From: Symbiodinium sp. CCMP2592
Taxonomy: Eukaryota > Sar > Dinophyceae > Suessiales > Symbiodiniaceae
NCBI GenBank assembly: GCA_905221615.1
Contig: CAJNDT010006014.1
Span: 103,501-167,500, forward strand
Length of the DNA: 64,000 nucleotides
Direction: 5' to 3'
Shown here: positions 4,909 through 51,300 of the stretch, piece after piece
How positions within the stretch are numbered: the stretch's first letter is position 1
How the letters are laid out: each line of letters begins with the position of its first letter
The notes under the pieces: model-generated
Database searches by the model: none
The model's input: only the letters and a program-made list of their open reading frames with translations
What the model was told of the DNA's origin: nothing
Program-made: the position numbers and the translations under genes

Positions 4909-6732
4909 CTAATCCAGCAAGTCGATGATGGCGCTACTCGCTTCTGGTGCGGGGCAGTTCAGTCTTTGCCGCTTCTCGGCTCGGCTCACATCGCGATGTG
5001 GCAGGCGTGTTAGGGAGCTCGAGGACCCACCAGCCAGCAGCATCTCAACAGCCCGTGATACATCGCCGCACTGCACCAGAGCCTGCTGGGCACGATCCTC
5101 TGCGAAACCCATCGAAACCAGCGTCGCCACGGCATCAGACCGCTCCGTGTTCACTGTGGGAGTCTGGTTCCCCCCTGCCTCCGCGTCCCCGTCGCTGTCC
5201 GTCAGCTCGATGCCCTCTATTTGGGCCTGAGGCTGCGCCGCAGACGCAGTGGGGGCAGAAGCCCCGAAGCTGAGGCGGCGCTGCGCGCCCAGTGCTTCGC
5301 CGAAGCCAACCTGCAAGTTCAGGATGTGCAGAACGAAGGGCTCCTCGGCAGGAACCAGTTTGCGGAAGAGGGCGAAGGCTCGATCTGCAATCTGACCCTG
5401 CAGACGCTCATCGTCGCCCTTCTCTCCGGGCTGTCGTGCAATTTGGAAGCTGCCCAGCTGCATCTGCTTCCGACCCCTACGTGCGCCACCCCCCTCCGAA
5501 CTGGGGGCATGCATCAAGCTTAATGAGAAGGTGGGGATTGGACGATATCCATACATGCGCTCGTCACTGCGGATCTTGGTGATCAACTTCTGTGCAAGGG
5601 CCAGGAGGTTTTCTCTAACCTGCGCATCTGTGCGAACAGGCCCCTGCCAGAAGGAATCCTGCACCGAGCAGGTCTTTGGTGCACCAGAGGCTTTCACTGG
5701 TGATGCATCGATGCCCCAGCAGAGCGCTTTCATGGTCCGCAATGTCCCGGCATCGAACTCCGTAAGCAGCCTCCCGTACTCCTCGCCCTCGGGCACCACA
5801 GCAGATAGCACCTCTCCTGTCGTGCGAACACCCAGCTCGTGCAGCTTTTGGGTTGAGGCGAAGCCAATACCAGGGACCTTCTGCACGGCCAAATCATCTG
5901 GCAGAAGATGTCCCAAACGATCGGCCGTTGGCAGAAACAGTGTCTGCTGGCTGGGCTTCTTCCAGGAAGACACCATCTTTGCAAGCTGTTTGGACACGCT
6001 GATGCCGGCAGAGGATGTGAGCCCAATCTCGGAAAGCATGGCCTCGCGGATCTCTCGGCAAATGTCCGAAGCAAGGGCCAGGCGAGCCCAGCAGCGATGA
6101 GCGTCATCCAAGTCCTTCCAGTCCGCCTGCCGAACCTCCCGCACTTCGCTGCTACCGCTACCGCTGCTACCGCTGCTACCGCTCTCCAGCTCTTTGGGGT
6201 ACTCATGACCCGTGGAGCAGAGGCGTAGGCAAGTTTCGGGATCCTCCAGAGCTTTCAAGCGCTCGGCGACGAGCTCCGTGACGTCCACGAAGACTTCGTC
6301 CAGGCCCAGCTTCTCCACTTTCGAGCTCCAGCGTGCTGCAACATCGAAGGCCCGCTGCGACAGCTCCCCGTAGAAGGTTAGGTCCTCACCGTTGCAGATG
6401 GTGATCTCGGGGCACTTCTCTCGGACCACCTGCAAGGAGTCACCCTTCTTGATGCCACAGGCCCTCGCTGCATAGTTGGACGTGATGACCAGCATCTTCT
6501 GCTGCACGCCCACGGGCCTCCCTTTCAGATGCGGGTGTCGGATCTCCTCGCACTGAGCGTAAAAGCAGTCCATGTCGATGGCCAGGATGCAGCTGCTCGC
6601 GGCGAGCAGCTCCGGCGACGAGGCGGCCGCCCGTGCTGTGGAGGGCTCCGAAAGCTTCCCCTCGCCGCAGGCCTCTGGGATCATCTGCGAGGTGAGGATA
6701 TTGCGCCATCTCCGCTCCGTCTCCACCGCCAT
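4909..6732 (-). CDS. POLI: Y-family translesion DNA polymerase, Pol iota-like, with C-terminal UBA domain
   Basis: A single uninterrupted reading frame of 607 residues ending in TAG. It encodes a Y-family DNA polymerase, which inserts nucleotides opposite damaged template bases in the nucleus. The palm/fingers block starts near residue 48 with AIDMDCFYAQCEE (Asp53 is the first metal ligand), followed by the Pol iota-like GRPVGVQQKMLVITSNYAAR and CPEITICNGEDLTFY, and the second catalytic pair in KLGLDEVFVDVTE near residue 145. A helix-hairpin-helix (VPGIGFASTQKL) lies near 290 and the little-finger region follows. Near the C-terminus VSMGFAEDRAQQALVQCGD is a ubiquitin-associated (UBA) fold, fitting recruitment by ubiquitinated PCNA. 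The VQQK block favours Pol iota over eta or kappa. ATG 6732 was chosen because it keeps the N-terminal tail; M17 is an alternative. There are no introns, unlike most genes here. The family is clear; the exact orthology is inference. Confidence 0.93.
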   Translation of the reverse strand: MAVETERRWRNILTSQMIPEACGEGKLSEPSTARAAASSPELLAASSCILAIDMDCFYAQCEEIRHPHLKGRPVGVQQKMLVITSNYAARACGIKKGDSLQVVREKCPEITICNGEDLTFYGELSQRAFDVAARWSSKVEKLGLDEVFVDVTELVAERLKALEDPETCLRLCSTGHEYPKELESGSSGSSGSGSSEVREVRQADWKDLDDAHRCWARLALASDICREIREAMLSEIGLTSSAGISVSKQLAKMVSSWKKPSQQTLFLPTADRLGHLLPDDLAVQKVPGIGFASTQKLHELGVRTTGEVLSAVVPEGEEYGRLLTEFDAGTLRTMKALCWGIDASPVKASGAPKTCSVQDSFWQGPVRTDAQVRENLLALAQKLITKIRSDERMYGYRPIPTFSLSLMHAPSSEGGGARRGRKQMQLGSFQIARQPGEKGDDERLQGQIADRAFALFRKLVPAEEPFVLHILNLQVGFGEALGAQRRLSFGASAPTASAAQPQAQIEGIELTDSDGDAEAGGNQTPTVNTERSDAVATLVSMGFAEDRAQQALVQCGDVSRAVEMLLAGGSSSSLTRLPHRDVSRAEKRQRLNCPAPEASSAIIDLLD

Positions 6733-8549
6733 GGGTGCTAGGTCCCCGATTCAAGGCAAGCAAACCAAAGTACCATATTTATTTATCCATGGCGAAGGCG
6801 CTATTTTCCAGGCCGCTGCGAAAAAATGGCAGCCTACGGCCTCCTGACAGGCTTCTTCCTGAACAAAGACGACGGCCTTCCTGAATCTGAGAAGCTACAT
6901 GACATGAGCTCTCGAAGCAGCTGTGAGCCAGGGGAGCCGGAGAGAGCTGCATACTGCAGTCTGAACCTCTCCATGAAAACCATCCCCGATGCCGATGACA
7001 GTGTACCATGTCGTCTCCCTTGAACCACCCTGGAATCGGGAGTCCTGTGTCCATGTTATCGGTTATTTGCTTTCAGCCTTGGGGGACTCTTTTTCCACCG
7101 TAAGGACCTCCGAACTTTGAACCTCAATCCCCAACCCGACACCAAAACAGCTCAAAGAAACCGATCCTCCAGCAACGACTGCTGTTCCTCGTCCTGTCGG
7201 AGTCTTTCAATTCCAGGAGGTTGCTTCTCGGCTTATTCGGACTATCACGGAATTAGCCGCGGCGGACGCTCACGGAACGCGTGGTATCTCCGAAAGATCC
7301 GCGAGCTCGCACGGAAGGCCCTGTCCTCGCCGTCCTCCCCGACAATACTCCTGATTCGGGGACGGATGCGGCTGAAAGCGATAGGGGAGTTTCCGAAAAT
7401 CGGGGCACCTTATTTGGGGGTCCTTACAATAAGCATCCTAGTATTTAGGGTACTATATTCGGGTCCCCCATTTTCGGAAACTCCTATAGGGGTCCAGGTT
7501 GGATGATAAGTCGACGCCGCCGCCGATGCCAATACCCGCAGGTGTGCTGGTCAGAAATCAGAAACGCGAGAAGAGGCCCACAAGCTAAAGCATCTCCCAA
7601 ACCATCCTGGCAGTCTCTATTGCAGGTGCTCGTGCCTTACACCTTCAGCCTCCAGACCTGGGGACTCTCAGCGTCTCCCTCCAAACCACCCACTTCCATC
7701 AGGTGACGGTTTGAAGCTGAAGGCCCTATAAGCCCTTTTTTTGAGTCACGGGCTGGGGCCGGACGTCTGGGCCCTAAGCCCTCTCCTCCGAAACCCTAAA
7801 CCGTACTGAGAAGGTGAAGGCCCAAGTTTCGTGGCGTGGGAGAGACACGCCAGCACTGGCTCCTGTATTGCGCGCCAGCATGTGTTGTTGTCGCGACCTG
7901 CTGGCGGCCCTCGGCACACACTACGTGGGAACAGGCTCTAGAGTCTAGAGAAGGACTCTGTCACCACTCGGCAAAGCCAAATGCACTATGCGGGATGGGA
8001 TGCCTGAAGACCGTCTGGCGTCCCTCACGCCATCGCTGCCTTTCTCGAAATCTTCGCAGGATCTGGGGCCAAGGCTCTGGGCGGCCCCTCGACGTCACCC
8101 TGGCAGGGCCAAGCATGGAACAGCATTCGATCTCTCGATACAAAGAACCCCAACTCACACGAACCTATGATGAATCAGTATGCTGTATACAAGTAACTTG
8201 AACCTCGAAGTAAAGCCAGGAATTCTCGTGGCAGCTTTCATGTAGCATGTTCTGAGTTCTGAACCTCATCCTCACTCTTTGGCTGGGGAAGGCCGACCAT
8301 TCGCCGACCTGCCTTTGAGGATTTCATGTTCCGGCTTTGAGCCTTGTGGGGCCTTAGGGCTCATTGCGGGCTTCAGGGTCTCGACTCTCTCACACATGGC
8401 AGGACAAGCTATCCATCTAGCCACTGCAACTAAGTGCCGTTGTCAAACCCACGGCAGCAACCAGCACCAAACCGCAGACCGAGCCACCTCACATGCTGCA
8501 TCCCACAGTACGTTCCAACTGGCGCAGAAACCACTTGGCTTTTTCTCTG
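6733..8549. other. Spacer between SSL1 and POLI with one MITE-like element
   Basis: About 1.8 kb. It holds the short inverted-repeat element at 7382-7490. The GC-rich stretch 7990-8130 has open frames on both strands but no convincing splice-bounded exon. A 5' leader of POLI and the 3' end of SSL1 must be here; no promoter motif could be assigned. Confidence 0.45.
7382..7490. mobile_element. MITE-like element with about 25-bp terminal inverted repeats
   Basis: The left arm reads TAGGGGAGTTTCCGAAAATC and the right arm, read backwards on the other strand, TAGGAGTTTCCGAAAATGGG, with about 60 bp between. The centre (GTCCTTACAATAAGCATCC, TATTTAGGGTACTATATTCG) matches, in opposite orientation, the element at 18246-18320, where GGGAGTTTC, GACCCTAATATAGTACCCTA and ATAGCAGGATCC occur in the same order. 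Two diverged copies with shared centres indicate a small non-autonomous DNA transposon family. No transposase is present. Confidence 0.6.
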
Positions 8550-9758
8550 CTACTCCCGGCTAAGTCTCGCTGCGCCGCCATGGGCAAGACAGCTTGGGCA
8601 TTGCCGAAGCGTGGTGTGCATAAAGTCATCACAGGCCTGGCAAAAGCTGGCTTTGCAACTGGGACACTGGCGCCCTGACGAGTGGATAGGCAGAAGGCAA
8701 GCTCCGCAGGAAGTTGCCGGCAGACCTTCGGAAAAGGCCGGCAGCGGTACCACACTCCTGAAGGCCCTCGCAAGCACACTGGCCGACACCAGAGGAAGGT
8801 CGCAGATTTTGCAGCGGCTGGGCAGGCCGCAGCTCCGAGCAGAACATCGAGGGCAAACATACAAAGTTCCGTGCACTTCGAGGTGGCAAGTACAGGTTTC
8901 TGGCTGCTTTTTTGCCTCCGGCCGCAACATCTTTGGGAAACCCATGCGAACGAGCTTCGGTGCCAACTGTCCGGCGGTGCAGGCGGGCGCAGAGAGGTGG
9001 GAGCTGAGGAGGTCCTCGAAGTGCTTCGTGTTCATTGCGACATCAAAGCGCCCAAAGGTATCGACGCAGACCCGCTTCAGCATGTAGATCTCCGGGCTGA
9101 GGGAAACGACCGAAACCTGGACTTTGCGTTCTCGCAGCGTTCGCCCCACGTCCTCCATACTCAAATCCTGCAGGTTGCAGGTGGAGACCGATGTGAAAAG
9201 CATTAAGAGCTCGCGCGAGCCATGGGGTGGTGCCCCGCCCAGCCCTTCTGCAGCGCGCTGCAGCGCTGCAACGGCCGCTGTGCGGCCGGAAGGACCCTCT
9301 TGTGCCGCCGTTGCCAGGCAGCTTCGCAGCGTGGCCGGCGCCGTACCCAGAGGTGCGAGGGCCTGGCATTTGCCATCACGGAGGACTAGCAGCCCAATCT
9401 CGGATAGCGGATTCTCTGCAAGGAACCGCGCCGAAAAGCGGGTTGCAGCTTGGCAAAGGAAATCCAAACGTCGTGGCCGGATGTCGGTACGTGCAGCCGT
9501 GGCCGTCATGTCTACGGCCAAGTACACATAGCGGATGACGCCACGGCGCAAAGCAGTCTCTTCGGCCTCAGAAACTGGCGCTGCCATCTTTGGGGCTGCC
9601 GGCCTTGCCGCCGGCGGCGGGGCTCTTCCGATGGCCCCATCCTCCAGCAGTGACTCCCACCGCCATCGTGCCTCCAACGAACGAGCGGCACGGTTCTGCG
9701 CCCGATCCTCGTCGATGCCACCCTCCTCCTCTGCGATGTCGTCCACGGCAGTGTCCAT
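8550..9758 (-). CDS. SSL1: TFIIH core subunit p44 (Ssl1/GTF2H2)
   Basis: An intronless frame of 402 residues ending in TAG. Ssl1/p44 is a core TFIIH subunit that binds and stimulates the XPD helicase in transcription initiation and nucleotide-excision repair in the nucleus. The N-terminal part contains the family motif RRGVIRYVYLAVDMTATAA that opens the von Willebrand A-like Ssl1 domain, followed by DIRPRRLDFLCQAA, FLAENPLSEIGLLVLRDG and FTSVSTCNLQDL. Then come a C4 zinc finger (CHLEVHGTLYVCPRC, CGLPSRCKICDLPLV) and the C-terminal TFIIH C1-like Cys cluster (CGACLLPIH, CPSCKASFCQACDDFMH, CPSC). I start at ATG 9758 (MDTAVDDIAEEEGG), which gives a length like human p44 (395 residues); the frame stays open to an ATG at 9926, which would add 56 low-complexity residues. 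The POLI gene lies downstream on the same strand. Family assignment is firm. Confidence 0.93.
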   Translation of the reverse strand: MDTAVDDIAEEEGGIDEDRAQNRAARSLEARWRWESLLEDGAIGRAPPPAARPAAPKMAAPVSEAEETALRRGVIRYVYLAVDMTATAARTDIRPRRLDFLCQAATRFSARFLAENPLSEIGLLVLRDGKCQALAPLGTAPATLRSCLATAAQEGPSGRTAAVAALQRAAEGLGGAPPHGSRELLMLFTSVSTCNLQDLSMEDVGRTLRERKVQVSVVSLSPEIYMLKRVCVDTFGRFDVAMNTKHFEDLLSSHLSAPACTAGQLAPKLVRMGFPKMLRPEAKKQPETCTCHLEVHGTLYVCPRCSARSCGLPSRCKICDLPLVSASVLARAFRSVVPLPAFSEGLPATSCGACLLPIHSSGRQCPSCKASFCQACDDFMHTTLRQCPSCLAHGGAARLSRE

Positions 9759-10115
9759 GGCAGGCGTGCCCAATTCGGCACGAGTCTGCGTCTGCGGGGC
9801 TTGGAGGCTAGTGTCGCGGCTTAAGGGTTGAGGGTTTGGCTCGCTGGATGCTGATAGTGGACCGGATTTGCTAGTCACAGCGGGACGACCTTCACTGACC
9901 AAGTGGCTTGCTTCCCGTACTTTCACTGCGAGGAAATGGCAGTAGTGTTGAGCTGGGGACGTCCGGGTTAGGGATTTTGGAAGAGCATGCAGAATGTGAA
10001 AGATACTAAAACCTTAAACCCTCGAGCCATATCTTGGTATTTCCACTGTCCAGTTTTTGGTTGAAGAGAGCTGTCCCATCCGTTCCGTGACCCTGCACTT
10101 TTTTGCCATATCCAA

Positions 10116-42364: not shown

Positions 42365-42821
42365 GTCAGACACTACATATTTCTCATCGCATCTCATCGC
42401 TCTCTTCGCTTCCCGGCTATCTGTTTCCAGAAAGGTCATAACGGAATCATCTCGGAACTTACGTCAAAATGCTGCTTCACCTGGACAGGCAGAATCAGAA
42501 GCCTTCGCCTTTTCTCGCGCTGTGCTTTGCCCGTCTTGCCATGGCTCCAGACGGTGGGTGCAGTCTACTTGCGCGATTACGGTTTCACAAAACTCTCACA
42601 AGTCCATCTTCACCTCTATCCAGTAAGCACTGAGAACTTAAAGTCCGAAACCCTGAAACGCTCTTTGTGCAGAATGGGCAACGCCGAAAAGCGTCCATAC
42701 TCTCTGAGTCGACCGCAAACAACCTGACAAAACCCACGCATTGCTGCTGCGAAGCCTGAACCTGAAGACAACAAACACCACTCAACATTCGTCACGACGT
42801 CATGCGTGCATAGATGCGCCA

Positions 42822-42846: not shown

Positions 42847-44517
42847 CATGCACGACATGCACGACGCAGGCATGGATGGATATGTGCACAGATTGCACGT
42901 ACACATGCATGCAGATTTGTGCTTGTTGCTTACAAGGTGATCCTCTATGAACAGTCCCCATCTGTGTAAGAATACGGTGACCTGCAGCCTCAGTCCGGGC
43001 CATGTCTTCGACCTGCCGAGGGTCGCTGCCATCACGTGGCCCGGGAATCTCAGACTGCCGGGCCCCGGAAAACTTCTGCCGGCCACTGGAAGCTGTCGAT
43101 TTGCGAGTTCCTGTCAATTGCTTTGCCGCCGTGGGTTCGGTACTGGGCCGTGGTTCGCATCCATGCGCAACCACATATCAATGGTCAAAGTGCCGCATAT
43201 GCCTCTTCATGTTTCTGGTCTGGCCTGCATCGCAGGTGCGGATAGGAGGCATAGGGGCCTGAATAATTTCAACAGGAATTGGGGTTCGCTAAACCGCTTA
43301 ACGCAAGAAACAAGAAGGCTGTACGGGCAATATGCTACGAAATCTTGGGGCTCTTTGTCGGGAGTGGGGGCTGTCGAAGTCATGCTGTTTGCGAGGCGAC
43401 AGGTTCGGTGGCTCACAGGACGCAATCGGGGCGCAGAGTACATGCAGCATTCATGGCACCCAGCCAACGGCCTCTCAGAATGAACTTTAAGTCGAACGCA
43501 GTGTGTAGGGTTGTGTGCTACCTGTGCTTCCCGGATTTTTGCATGGTGATAGGTAGGGAGATGAGGTCAAGATGCTTACATATGCTTATAGCTAATGTCA
43601 CAAATGTACCTACAACCCCAGTTGCAAAACCCTTGTACAGGCTGCGAAACCCAGCAAGAGGTCCTTTCTCAAACCGTGACATATCTGAAAGGCCGTTGGA
43701 GCCCTCGCTCTTTGCGACGGCTTCAGCATACCGTCAATCGCTGCAGGCTACGGTGGCCCGAGCTTGTCACAGATGCTCCGAGTATCAAACTGGGCTCCTG
43801 AAAGGGATGCTCTACCTGCGGTTTGGCTTAACTTTGATCACCCCTTTCAGGGGTTCGGGTCTCATGGCTTCTGTGTCGCTGAGGCTTAACCAGAAACCTC
43901 TCGACGCTTCAAGACCAAAAAAACTGAAGATGTAGGCTTTCGGCCTGAACCCTTCTGATTAGAAAAACCTTGGTGAAGAAGAAACCTCCAGATGTTGCAA
44001 GGTACGAACTCGCCCTTCCAAGCTCCCGAATCACGCGGAACGCGGGAGCCTTGAGTTCTGGGCTGCGGCTAAGGTTCAGGGACGAGGTTTGTGGCTCAGG
44101 TCCTAACTTTGGGCTTAACTTTAGCGCCTGTTTAGGGTTCGTGCTTCAGGTTCATGATTTATAAGCTTCTGAGGTTTAAGATTTAAGGTTCGGGTTTTGG
44201 ACTTGAAGCGTTAAGACGGCATGTTCGAGAATGCTGGAAGCCGAAGGTATGATTACATGCAGGAGCTTTCTCACAGAGACACTTGAAAAAGGCACATCTT
44301 GACTTCAAGCAGCCCCGTACAACTACAAATCTCGGATTCCAGGGGCCCAAGCCATTCGAACTACGAAGAGAAGCTGATTCCGAAAGGCTGTCCAACGAAC
44401 GACTGATGTGTCGCCTTTTTCTACAAAACATCACCTTTTCGGCATGTACCAGTATATGTGGATGTGTGGGCATGCGGGTGCGCACGTGCCACACGAGTAC
44501 GTAGACGTACGTAGACA

Positions 44518-45381: not shown

Positions 45382-48300
45382 TTAATGGGACCTGAATGAG
45401 TCTGAAGTTTCACCCTCAACCCTTTCGCGAGCCGTCAAGCCGTCAACATCAAGGTCAGGGAACGCATCGACGAACTCCTCAGGGGGCTGCGCACCAGAGA
45501 TCTGCTGCGCCTTCCTCGTCAAGACATTTCTTTCGAAAACGTTGCAGCTAGGGGCTGTCACCATTTCGACAGCTGGAGGTTTCAAAACTTTGCTCTCTGG
45601 CTCGACAGGACGATCCATGAAGCTCCTCTCAGAACGTCGGGCACGAAGGGTTCAGCCTCCTTACTGTTTCTGTTCTGGCTCTTGCTTTGTTCGTTTGGCT
45701 TTTGGGGCCCAACGCTTCTTCAGGAAGACCGAAGCCTGAACCGACTGAACCACCAAGCTGTCTGCAACCCGGGCGCGAAGATCCATCTGCCCGAATCACG
45801 AAGTGAGGCACTCCGCGCACCTCGGATGCGGGATTTCAAGCTCCGAACTCGCTCCGACTGATCGGTGGAGTGGCTGGGTCTAGATGCGCAGAAGGTAGGG
45901 CCGCATCCAGGGGGTTACTCGGTCTGCATCAGGAATGGGCACCCCTTTCCCTCGCTTCCCAAACAGTTACAGTAGCTGTAGCTGTCACAGCGAGGTAGCC
46001 ACGTAGAAGGCTTCAAAGATTCTGGACTGGAGTGTCCGAATCGAACAGGGTCTAAATAAGTTCCTTAAAGGGATCTACACTTACAAGGGCTTCTATAAGG
46101 GTACGAGAAGGTTTAGGGTACAGAGCTCCGACCAAACTGCAGCACAAAGGGCGCGAAGCCGCTGCCCGACCTTGAGCTCCTGAATGCCAGCTGCAGCTCT
46201 GAAGTCTCTTAGCTTTTCACGGACCTTCTTCCGACTTGTCTTCTAAAGAATTCCACGCCCAGAAAAAGGGAACCCGACACGGATGAACCGTCAGGGAAGA
46301 ACTAGCCTGCAAAGCTGCTGAAGCTTAAACCCTGAACCCCAAACTTTGCGATGGCTCCTCCTTCACCTCTGCTGCAGCCAGGGACTTGTCGGCGACCCTG
46401 GGCCCCATCAGCTCGAATTTGGGGTTAGCCCTTTATTGCAGGGGCATGAAATGCCTAAAAACTAGAATACGGTGAAGGTCTTTAAGTGAAGTTTCGAACA
46501 TTCTCCTAGCGACTCGAAGGAAATTCACTCGAATTGTTCCCGTCGGATTTCAGAGTTCGGGCTTCCTGGGAAAGGCATGTAGAAGCCCCGTCGGGGAAGT
46601 CCCAGCTCTGGGGCTCCAGGACTTGAACCTGAGGCCACCGAGGTGCAACTTGTCGCCATCCAGGCCCGCCGCCACGGCTGCCTGCGGTCGTTACGGGAGG
46701 TATGGGGCAGTGGGGGGCAGTGGGTGTGCGGGGGACTTGGGTATGGGGTTGCGCCCTGGAATCAGGCACCTCAGGCTGCTGCTATGAAGGATGTTTCGGT
46801 CGCAAGACTTTGGGGTGGTCTTGTCTCGGGACATCTTTCAGTTCCACCTCTGGACAGTGGGGCATTGCTCGGTTCCATACTTGTCGGACCCTTTCGCTGC
46901 ATTCGGCCCGTTCAAGCAAAGTGAGAAAAACAGCAAACAAGGGAGTCTGAGGCATAGCATAGACATCTACACCTGGAACCCTGTGCCTGTCACGACTACA
47001 ATAAAACCGTCCTCGCCCACATCATCAGCAGCGCCATCAGCGGGGGCCACCATCGTGATCATTTTGCATCGTGGACACCATCTTCAGCAGGAGCACGATG
47101 AAGAATTACAATTACAAAAACCCTATAAACCCTAAACCGTTTGTTGCAGCGCCTTCTTCAGCTCTTCCGGATCGTTGGGCGCCTTCCTTGGGCATCAAGT
47201 AAAAGGGCCGTCTGGTTTGGGCTGTTTGGGCGACCACGCCAGAAACTCGCAGCGCACGTTATGGACCGTCTTCTCTTATCTGCGGCCTATCCTTGACGTT
47301 TTAGCGGAACAGCCCTGCAACCCAGCCCCACATCTGGTTGCAGAACAGGGAGGAGTCTTCGCGAAGACGATTCTGTGATAGAGTGATAGAAACTGAGGTC
47401 AGCGTCATGCTAATATTCGGAAAAAAGAATGCAATGTAATCCTGAACCTGGCAGCCCTCCAAATCAAAGCCCTACATCCTGCAGCCCCAATCAAACGTTG
47501 TACCCCAGTCCCACCTCAGAGGCAGGATGCCTAAATTTCCCTACTCCCATGAGCCCATGTCAGAAGGTTGGGGTAGTCTAAGCAAGGTTTCGGAATGGGA
47601 TGAGTGCTTCTGCTTGATGGATGACAGAGCTGTAAGGCTCCAGGGTTCTCGTAGTCTCCTGAGTTTGCCGAGTTGAGGTGAAGGGCCCGTTGCCCGCCTG
47701 CTTTTACAGAAAACGAGGGCCTTTTTTCGAGTTATGTTGGCAGTTGCTGTTACGGTGCTGAGTCTCATCTTCATCGTCAAGACCAATGTTTCACCATCAT
47801 AGCTGAGATTGCAAGCATGGTCAGTCAGACGGCAGCTGTTGCTGGCACAGCAGCTACCACTGCAACCAACAGCAACAAAACAGAAACAACGGCTGAGAAT
47901 AATGCACTACGAATCCATCCAAGCGACTCTTCTGCGAAGTAGGAGTGGAACAAAGCCTGCACACCGGCAGCAGATCTGAGAAGTTGGGATTGGGGCTCAA
48001 GAAGCTCAAGGTTTAGGGCAGATGCGGGATTCTCGGGCTTGGCGCTTAGGGTCCTCTGAAGCACCTGGGCGAGTTGAGAGTCCCGTCCGTCACTCTGAGA
48101 GCTAGACCAACGGCTCAAGGCAAAAGTTTGTAATTTCGTCCGCCCACCTCAGCTGCCTTGTCTTGGGCAGCAGCGCCACCCTGCCTCAAAGAGAAGCTGA
48201 AGCTTCTGGTTGTTAGGGGGTCTTGGGATGTCTTGGGTTGTGGTCCAGTAAAAATCTTAAAGCTCAGGTGCGGGGGTTTACATCAGGAAGAACCGGCTAC

Positions 48301-51300
48301 AGGGTGGAACGCCATGCGCCATGCGCAACCAAGAGGTATAGACTCGATACAAGCCATGGCGGTGGTCACGAAGACGATCACAATTGTGATGATGATGATG
48401 ATGATGACGATGATCAGGGCCACGGCCGGGTAGATGGTGCACCACGCTGGTGATGGTAATGGTTGTGATATATGCTTGGAAATGGCAATGGTAAGAGTTC
48501 GAATAAGGAATGATGCTGGTGATGATGATAATCTGATGGTGCTGCTACTAACGATCATACGCTACTACTGATGATAATGACTCTCATCATCGTGATGTTG
48601 ACGACGATGATGACAACGACGAAGGTGCGAATATCGTTTACGATGGTGACGATGATGACGACGACGGCGATGGTGATGATAATGATGGCGTCGACGATGA
48701 TGACGACAACGAAGATGATGGCGATGATGATAATGACAAACGATGACGACGATGACATGATGGCGATGGTGATGATGCTGGCGATGACGATGACGACGAC
48801 GATGATGATAATGATGATGATGGTGCAGTCACAACCATTCAGGCTGCAAGTATTGTGGAGCAAACGGTCAGTATTGTTGAAGATTTTTTCGAGCTGCAAA
48901 TAAACTGCTCTATCGCCGCTTAAGGGCTGCTTCGCAACTACGGTCTGTAACATGCGGGCTTCATCATGACCACCATCGGCAGCATCGCCTGCATCTTCAA
49001 CGCCATCATCGCTACCACCGTCACAGCCATCATCATCACCACCACCACCACCATCATCATCACGGTCATGGTCACCATCATCACTGTCACGACCAGCGGC
49101 CGGTAGGCTTCGGTGAGGACTCTGTGCGCATCGAAGGTGCTGCTCACCTGAGCTGGGGTGTGCGTGGAATGCGGCCATCGCGCCCTGCAGCTTTGCAGCG
49201 AAGAGGCCAAGCCCTTCTCCGTGAAGGCGTAGGGCAGTCCCACCGCATCGAACTTGCCTTTTGCTATGGCAGGCTCACGGTGTTCGATGCAGGTCTAAGG
49301 ATTTAGGCCTAGATTTAGACGCATGATCTACCATACCTTTCGTTGTGTGTCCTTAGCCCACATGCATCAGTTATCATCAGTTGTCCTAGGTGGTTGCGAC
49401 GGATGGCCGATGAGTGAGTTCTATCGGTGAGGAAGTTCTGTCATGCGGGCCGAAAATCAAACAGCCTACGGAGGGCTGGCCGTGATACTGCATCGGAATG
49501 AGGTACTGTAAATTGCAACATGCAGAACCACATTGACGTGGCGTCTCAAGCCTTTGATGGAACATGTGTCAGCAGCAGACTACCATGATGATCCAGCACG
49601 GCATTGCTTCGCAAGATATGACAACAGGCAATCGCTACGTTACTGCAAAGCCTGATGGTTTATGCACAGAATGTGGACTGTCACCATGCACCAGCACCAC
49701 TACCAGTCCTTTGCAATGCTGACTACTACTACTGCCTGCTGCTGTTTCTGACTACTACTGGTGACTACTGCTGTTTCGGAGGAAGCCCAGGCCTTTCATC
49801 CAGTCACCCATCTGCTTCACTTCTTCCTGCAACAGCGGGACTCGGGAATATCTCTTCGGGAAGCTTGAACCAATCACAACACTCGTCGGCATTCGGGGAA
49901 TATCGAGTAGCGTCAGCTCAAGGGTCAGAAGTCTAATTCGGAATGCTGGTTCATGGACTTGTTACGATGTGGTTGCCTGCTACCCCGTCCAGTGCTCAAA
50001 TTGTCGCCCGAAAGCATCGATTATGCAACTATGCACGAGCAGCTGGCAAAGCTTCTAACACATGTGTTCGAAGCCTTGCTCTTGCCAAACTTGTCCGCAT
50101 AGGCCTGCATCCTTAGTCGAGTCGAGCTCGATACTTGTCGCAGGAATGAAAAATCTGGCGCCGCCCGACAACCTCAGCATCTTCATCTCAACCTTCTTGT
50201 GATCACAGAAAATTGAATCAAAACATCCACAGACAGGTCTTTCAGTCACCTGCCAAGCAGTTTCGCGTATACCGGAGGAGCAGTGGGATTGAGGGTGCAA
50301 GGGGTCATGGTCTCAGGGATGTTGAGACGTCTATGCAGCATCCATCTCAGCTAGCCGGGACCCCAATGCCTCGAAGCCCTGAGCGGTCCTTGCCTAATGC
50401 AGCTGCGAGTCTTGCTGGATGGCTTGTCGGATGCTTGGGGATTCAGCTGATATGGCAGCCAGCGCACTTCAAAGTCAACGTCAGAGAACCTCACAGAGCA
50501 GAGCCAGGTTTTTATGAGCCAGAAACACTACACACGGATCAAAAATCGGCTACCCACACACGCAACCAATGGCAATCAAATCCGAGCTCGTCGGAAGAGG
50601 ACGTGTTTGCTTGTCTGCCCTTTATTGCCTTTACCCCGCATGAACCAGGACCTCACATGGACGCCAGCCGCAAGAATAGCCTGGAAAGCGTCATGCAAAC
50701 ACACGGAAGCTTCCAGTGGGCCCACTTGCTTTCAGAATGTCCTTCCCTGTCATCGACTGAACCCTGCAGGCGTCGTCGTCGTCGTCGCGATGGCGGTTCC
50801 GGCAGTACTGTCAGGAGCAGCGGTAGCAGCACCCATTTGAGAGGCACCGTGGCTGTCATGTGGCTGTTGCTTGCTGACTGTGATAAGAGCTATAATATCA
50901 ATATTGATAATGAGATTACCTTTCATGATTAGACATTCGTTATCGTAACACTATTGATACCAATAATAAAGCAATATACACAACAACTGTTATTGTAACA
51001 TACAGGTAACTGGTAGCATCCTTCTTTCTGGGCCCGACCCGAGGAGCCTCCGCTCCCCGGGCTCTTTTTGGGGTTTAGCCGAGGCTCTGCTTCATGGCTC
51101 CCTCCAGATTGCGCTTCCCGATCCAGCAGAAGGGTCAGACGACGTCGCTGATCACATCGACCATGACCTATTGGGGGAGGGGGTGAAATTTGTTGTTAGG
51201 TTCGGGAGTTTTCGGGCGTAGAGTTCAAGGCCTGGGGGACAGGGACATTGCCTGCAGCTTTCGGGTGATGGCCGTACAAGCCCTGAGCAAACAGATCCCC

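Follow-up and report, generated by a model that had tools for sequence, protein, structure and literature searches.

A FrnE/DsbA-type oxidoreductase gene with TGA at its redox cysteine: a probable selenoprotein gene of a known kind in an intron-rich protist locus

Does a single in-frame TGA end the protein of an otherwise open gene, or is it read as an amino acid? The question is raised by a locus on the minus strand of the 64-kb stretch of DNA analysed here (the window). The codon, at 51137-51135 (-), lies within ...VISDVV-TGA-PFCWIGKR..., where an oxidoreductase of the FrnE/DsbA type (PF01323) has the first Cys of its CPxC site.

The TGA codon and the spliced FrnE gene

The locus was modelled by splice-aware profile alignment, in which GT, GC and GA donors and AG acceptors were accepted and TGA was allowed as Cys at a penalty. 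The profile was built from 32 bacterial sequences, and robustness was assessed with three profiles at three intron costs, giving nine settings. The spliced FrnE model, at 52.5-44.8 kb, scored 101.6 bits, against a mean of 19.7 bits (sd 2.1, maximum 24.3) for 40 dinucleotide shuffles. When 61.6 of the 64 kb was covered on each strand by 16 tiles of the same length, the 14 tiles without the gene on their sense strand scored at most 27.0 bits, and the two tiles holding the FrnE gene, which is split by a tile border, scored 75.8 and 35.5 bits. All nine models contained exactly one TGA (VISDVV-U-PFCW) and no TAA or TAG, with the reservation that the Sec column was set to Cys in the profiles, which favours a codon read as Cys there. 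The in-frame TGA at the redox Cys of a FrnE-like protein, which an earlier sequence-only reading of this DNA had proposed, was thereby confirmed at 51137-51135 (-), in an open frame.

The family assignment was examined with a protein pieced by hand from the exons, with Cys typed at the TGA. This protein matched Pfam DSBA (PF01323) with an E-value of 1.6e-18, PDB entry 3gl5 (putative DsbA oxidoreductase SCO1869) with 1.3e-11 and 5cnw (FrnE) with 9.2e-11; our own FrnE profile, run against this single sequence, gave 3.1e-33, and NCBIfam gave no match at 0.001. The window protein shares its family and motifs with 5cnw and 3gl5, whereas both of these have Cys, by alignment, at the site where the window gene has TGA. 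The encoded active site is U-P-F-C, and the SDVV-CPxC-xIGKR context is kept. The features of the gene are as follows.

51086..51167, minus strand: active-site exon, (V)MVDVISDVV-U-PFCWIGKRNLEGAMKQ, with an ATG at 51164
51135..51137, minus strand: TGA at the first Cys of CPxC, predicted Sec; the sole stop-type codon in 9/9 spliced models
50412..50489, minus strand: exon FSDVDFEVRWLPYQLNPQASDKPSS(K), exact in 7/9 models
50060..50111, minus strand: exon MQAYADKFGKSKA..., 5' border in 8/9 models, 3' border variable
49769..49826, minus strand: possible exon EEVKQMGDWMKGLGF..., 3/9 models; included in the hand-pieced Pfam query
49200..49252, minus strand: exon FDAVGLPYAFTEKGLASS, 5' border in at least 5/9 models, 3' border variable
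49101..49152, minus strand: exon (..)STFDAHRVLTEAYR, at least 8/9 models, borders variable
47928..47956, minus strand: exon (VQ)ALFHSYFAE, 3' border in at least 8/9 models, 5' border at 47956 (5 models) or 48004 (3 models)
47153..47186, minus strand: possible exon KAPNDPEELKK, 2/9 models
46646..46681, minus strand: possible exon AAVAAGLDGDKL, with AAVAAGLDGD in 2/9 models; included in the hand-pieced Pfam query
45788..45820, minus strand: exon with the GVP loop, VRGVPHFVIRA, 9/9 models
45382..45510, minus strand: last recognised exon, AQQISGAQPPEEFVDAF, 45510-45460 in 9/9 models, the remainder by open frame

The FrnE peptides recognised on the minus strand are DVDFEVRWLPYQLNP, QAYADKFGKSK, EEVKQMGDWMKGLGF, FDAVGLPYAFTEKGLASS, STFDAHRVLTEAY, VQALFHSYFAE, NDPEELKK, AAVAAGLDGDKL, GVPHFVIRA and QQISGAQPPEEFVDAF. 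The GVPxF (cis-Pro) loop VRGVPHFVIRA and the C-terminal SGAQ motif QQISGAQPPEEF were both present in 9/9 models. The first three and the last two exons were stable across models, and the 5' border of the active-site exon was at 51167 in all nine, with its 3' border at 51091 (3 models), 51088 (2) or 51086 (4). The middle of the gene, at about 49.8-45.8 kb, was variable. NDPEELKK and AAVAAGLDGDKL were each found in only 2/9 models, yet both are family-like in the hand-pieced protein; in place of the KAPNDPEELKK part, the models more often took 47835-47817 (6/9) and 47768-47687 (5/9). These two segments and 48092-48065 (5/9) were left off the list because they carry no clear family motif.

A spliced FrnE gene therefore stands, but the fourteen phase-consistent exons first proposed for it do not stand as a count: between 9 and 16 exons were modelled depending on the setting. 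Exon number and exact splice points are not fixed, because the GT/GC/GA donors are permissive and the 49.8-45.8 kb part depends on the settings. Likewise, the claim that everything downstream is intact as far as a TAA holds for the open frame, with no other stop in 9/9 models and a TAA at 45384-45382 (-) that ends the open frame of the last recognised exon; this TAA is a putative rather than a proven stop. The long introns with GT, GC and GA donors, which the splice model allowed, presumably fit a dinoflagellate, and the host is best described as an intron-rich protist that may be one. Long trinucleotide repeat tracts of ATG/ATC type at 48380-49080 (-) lie between two FrnE exons and are therefore probably intronic.

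Long introns and permissive splice signals also give some room to the idea that the TGA exon is an alternative or a decoy and that another exon supplies the Cys. However, no second match was found, the 14 other tiles of the window being at background, and we consider this idea extremely unlikely. The degenerate motif GAYNTNRYNTGACCNTKBTGYTDBVTNGG has a single match in the 64-kb window, at the TGA site, and was found in 0/100 shuffles.

The same substitution in bacteria and in other eukaryotes

A degenerate pattern scan of bacterial genome contigs returned at least 117 stretches with TGA at the FrnE site (L001-L117), of which at least 108 of those listed have 180 or more open residues downstream of the TGA. 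The nine listed stretches with fewer than 180 downstream residues were dropped; several of these are cut by the end of the locus, and at least two (L097 and L100) are probably chance matches. From base frequencies, about five chance matches to the pattern would be expected. All 117 listed stretches gave a blastp match to the window pieces at E <= 0.01, to which the motif itself contributes. Removing the motif region left 58 of the 108 listed with a match at E <= 1e-3, 36 of them also at 1e-5; the remaining listed stretches are more distant relatives. Labelled taxa among the matches listed include Betaproteobacteria, Bacillales, Chloroflexota, Myxococcota and others. FrnE genes with an in-frame TGA are thus widespread in bacteria, and many are from Bacillales isolates (Neobacillus, Fictibacillus, Cytobacillus).

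The Sec-decoding proteins SelA and SelB were both found over curated cut-offs in 12/12 genomes tested with a TGA-containing FrnE, chosen from those of the at least 117 stretches, versus 1/12 genomes with a Cys-containing FrnE. The latter were all 12 Cys forms of a class-wide sample, in which 13 of 143 genomes had a FrnE match; the one among these with TGA was the centre genome itself, and the other 12 lacked it. The TGA at this FrnE site is selenocysteine in many bacteria.

Given that the TGA of the window gene sits at the right site, that the frame is intact and that the same substitution occurs in Sec-decoding bacteria, Sec is the best reading of the codon. The TGA aligns with the Cys or Sec of the homologues and the frame continues intact beyond it, as looked for in a eukaryotic selenoprotein gene. 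Judged from sequence, the window gene is most probably a true selenoprotein gene belonging to the known Sec-FrnE/DsbA type, with UGA read as Sec. It would be an intact, intron-rich nuclear protist gene for a thiol-disulfide oxidoreductase of FrnE/DsbA type, in which the eukaryotic SECIS/SBP2/eEFSec pathway would insert selenocysteine at the UGA. The predicted active site U-P-F-C would replace C-P-x-C; the cis-proline loop (GVP) and the C-terminal motif SGAQ are retained. In the predicted enzyme activity, we take the selenolate to attack and the downstream Cys to resolve, roles that we assume from the family.

A sequencing or assembly error, in which a TGC or TGT was recorded as TGA, would produce the same letters in an otherwise intact gene. 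Such an error would, however, have to hit a known Sec site by chance, and it seems quite unlikely to us.

Selenoproteins of this kind have been described in several lineages. One report places a Sec-containing FrnE in Mamiellophyceae and in M. viride (PMC6627142); these are algal FrnE selenoproteins too, of the green lineage, and the comparison with them is by description only. According to a second, DSBA is among the most widely distributed algal Sec proteins, and the number of selenoprotein genes in Symbiodinium minutum is given as 29 in one place and 26 in another (PMC7539508). Among marine invertebrates, DsbA selenoproteins have been reported from sea squirts, amphioxus and others (PMC2874816, PMC3473315). 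As in the window gene, the upstream Cys of their CXXC is replaced by Sec; they are metazoan, and the same sources report a SECIS in amphioxus and in two sea squirts. PMC2398784 and PMC5029168 list DsbA-type selenoproteins of bacteria, which are pfam01323 proteins with UxxC, and among the bacterial matches listed here the Sec position is that of the window TGA. Unlike the intron-rich window gene, they are intronless and use SelA/SelB decoding.

The sequence-only reading had called the gene a probable new selenoprotein. Its Sec part is supported by the site, the frame and the bacterial parallel, but "new" is wrong at the family level, because Sec-FrnE/DsbA is already published from bacteria, algae and marine invertebrates. 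In the literature searched, no paper clearly dealt with a FrnE selenoprotein of a dinoflagellate, which is weak evidence of absence as subscription journals were mostly outside it. Newness amounts at most to there being no description for this group in that literature, and the gene is most likely ordinary for its family and perhaps the first noted in its group. With it the Sec-FrnE/DsbA family gains an intron-rich protist member, and Sec is seen to recur at this active site in lineages far apart. Automatic annotation is likely to truncate the FrnE gene at the TGA or to miss it. The finding alters neither our picture of the genetic code nor that of selenoproteins in general.

Decoding of the UGA

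The 3' side of the gene was searched for SECIS beyond 45382, a check suggested in the sequence-only reading. Four Rfam searches of this side were all negative for SECIS, and a simple pattern scan and two fold-based scans gave a few weak SECIS-like candidates. The best of these is the following.

43650..43745, minus strand: best SECIS-shaped hairpin (CUGA ... AAA ... GA, apical helix), candidate at 43725, about 1.66 kb past the TAA

In this long hairpin with an apical helix, UGA and GA face each other and AAA lies in a bulge; the base before UGA is C instead of A/G. The predicted stability is -32.5 kcal/mol (z -1.59), and 14/200 shuffles were as stable or more so. A second candidate, at 42438 (-), has ATGA, AAA and GA, in a context that disfavours the fold (z +1.17). 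Over both strands of the window, the SECIS shape test gave 36 hits, some of them duplicates. Four of its hits, at two distinct TGAs, fell in the 3-kb 3' flank, where 200 shuffles gave a mean of 1.1 hits; four hits were reached in 6/200 shuffles and two distinct TGAs in 54/200. By these folding models, SECIS-like folds in the 3' flank appear few and not clearly above chance, which together with the negative Rfam searches counts against the Sec reading. It is conceivable that the gene is an alveolate FrnE selenoprotein whose UGA is read through a divergent SECIS, with CUGA rather than RUGA, a long apical helix and a position about 1.7 kb past the stop; we hold this specific proposal to be a long shot. 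If true, the divergent SECIS would be a lineage-specific relaxation of the SECIS core. A bacterial-type SECIS hairpin directly 3' of the TGA was also considered and found no support (z +1.95, with 198/200 shuffles folding equally well or better).

That no SECIS was established by Rfam or by the fold scans of the 3' flank, and that only one copy of the gene is known, would fit a recently inactivated gene in which a Cys codon has mutated to TGA and the protein is truncated. Against this, the family motifs are intact downstream, and the TGA, the single stop in about 190 codons, falls exactly where many bacteria that decode Sec also have TGA. In the exon cores (eleven cores, one short core being out of frame), about 64 different single-base changes would create a nonsense codon, and the one observed is at the attacking Cys. 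We therefore consider inactivation unlikely, and decoding as Sec remains the preferred reading.

Alternatively, TGA might be reassigned or ambiguous in this genome, for example to Cys or Trp, rather than read as Sec. Alveolates with reassigned stops exist, such as Amoebophrya (PMC6394959). However, in the FrnE exon cores, whose detection permitted TGA as a sense codon, the other Cys is encoded by TGC and all three Trp by TGG, and similar usage was seen in two long open frames nearby.

4912-6750, minus strand: 613-codon intronless open frame with an impB/mucB/samB (Y-family polymerase, IMS) domain and a C-terminal UBA
8553-10013, minus strand: 487-codon intronless open frame with an Ssl1-like (TFIIH subunit) domain

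These frames, of 613 and 487 codons, stop at TAG and enclose, respectively, a complete Y-polymerase and a complete Ssl1 domain; together they encode 37 Cys, all by TGC/TGT, and 9 Trp, all by TGG. The frames were picked for lacking stops, so that the absence of TGA from them is partly by construction and serves only as supporting evidence. On this codon usage, TGA seems not to serve generally as a sense codon, and we regard its reassignment as very unlikely. An intronless frame for a Y-family polymerase shares the window with the intron-rich FrnE gene.

Origin of the gene and its surroundings

A tree was made from 35 of the at least 108 bacterial Sec sequences, the 12 Cys forms and the window protein. 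In it, the window protein forms a very long branch and pairs with a Cys form (L118; support 96/92), a placement that counts against the Sec reading. The tree does not support the idea that the Sec was inherited from bacteria of a Sec-bearing clade. By identity, the window protein is most similar to L088, a Sec form (40% over 173 columns). The record of L088 is labelled Bordetella parapertussis (isolate TH-...), a species label that may be doubtful; it is a betaproteobacterial Sec-FrnE and pairs with a Burkholderiales MAG.

Among plasmid records, FrnE-type matches had 27-34% identity among the 40 listed of 60. In viral contigs, the peptide pattern of the pieced protein fitted five stretches, of which none could be confirmed to be a relative, and there were 0 matches to the pattern for the Sec site.

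In the flanks (36.0-45.5 and 51.0-60.5 kb), no Pfam family reached E <= 0.1 in the three minus-strand frames, which is weak evidence because the exons are short. ARAGORN found no tRNA. As a sign of dinoflagellate origin, a spliced-leader relic was sought in the 64-kb window, with 0 matches; this says little, since most genes need not carry a relic. The telomere-like sequence CCCTAAA occurs 14 times on each strand of the window.
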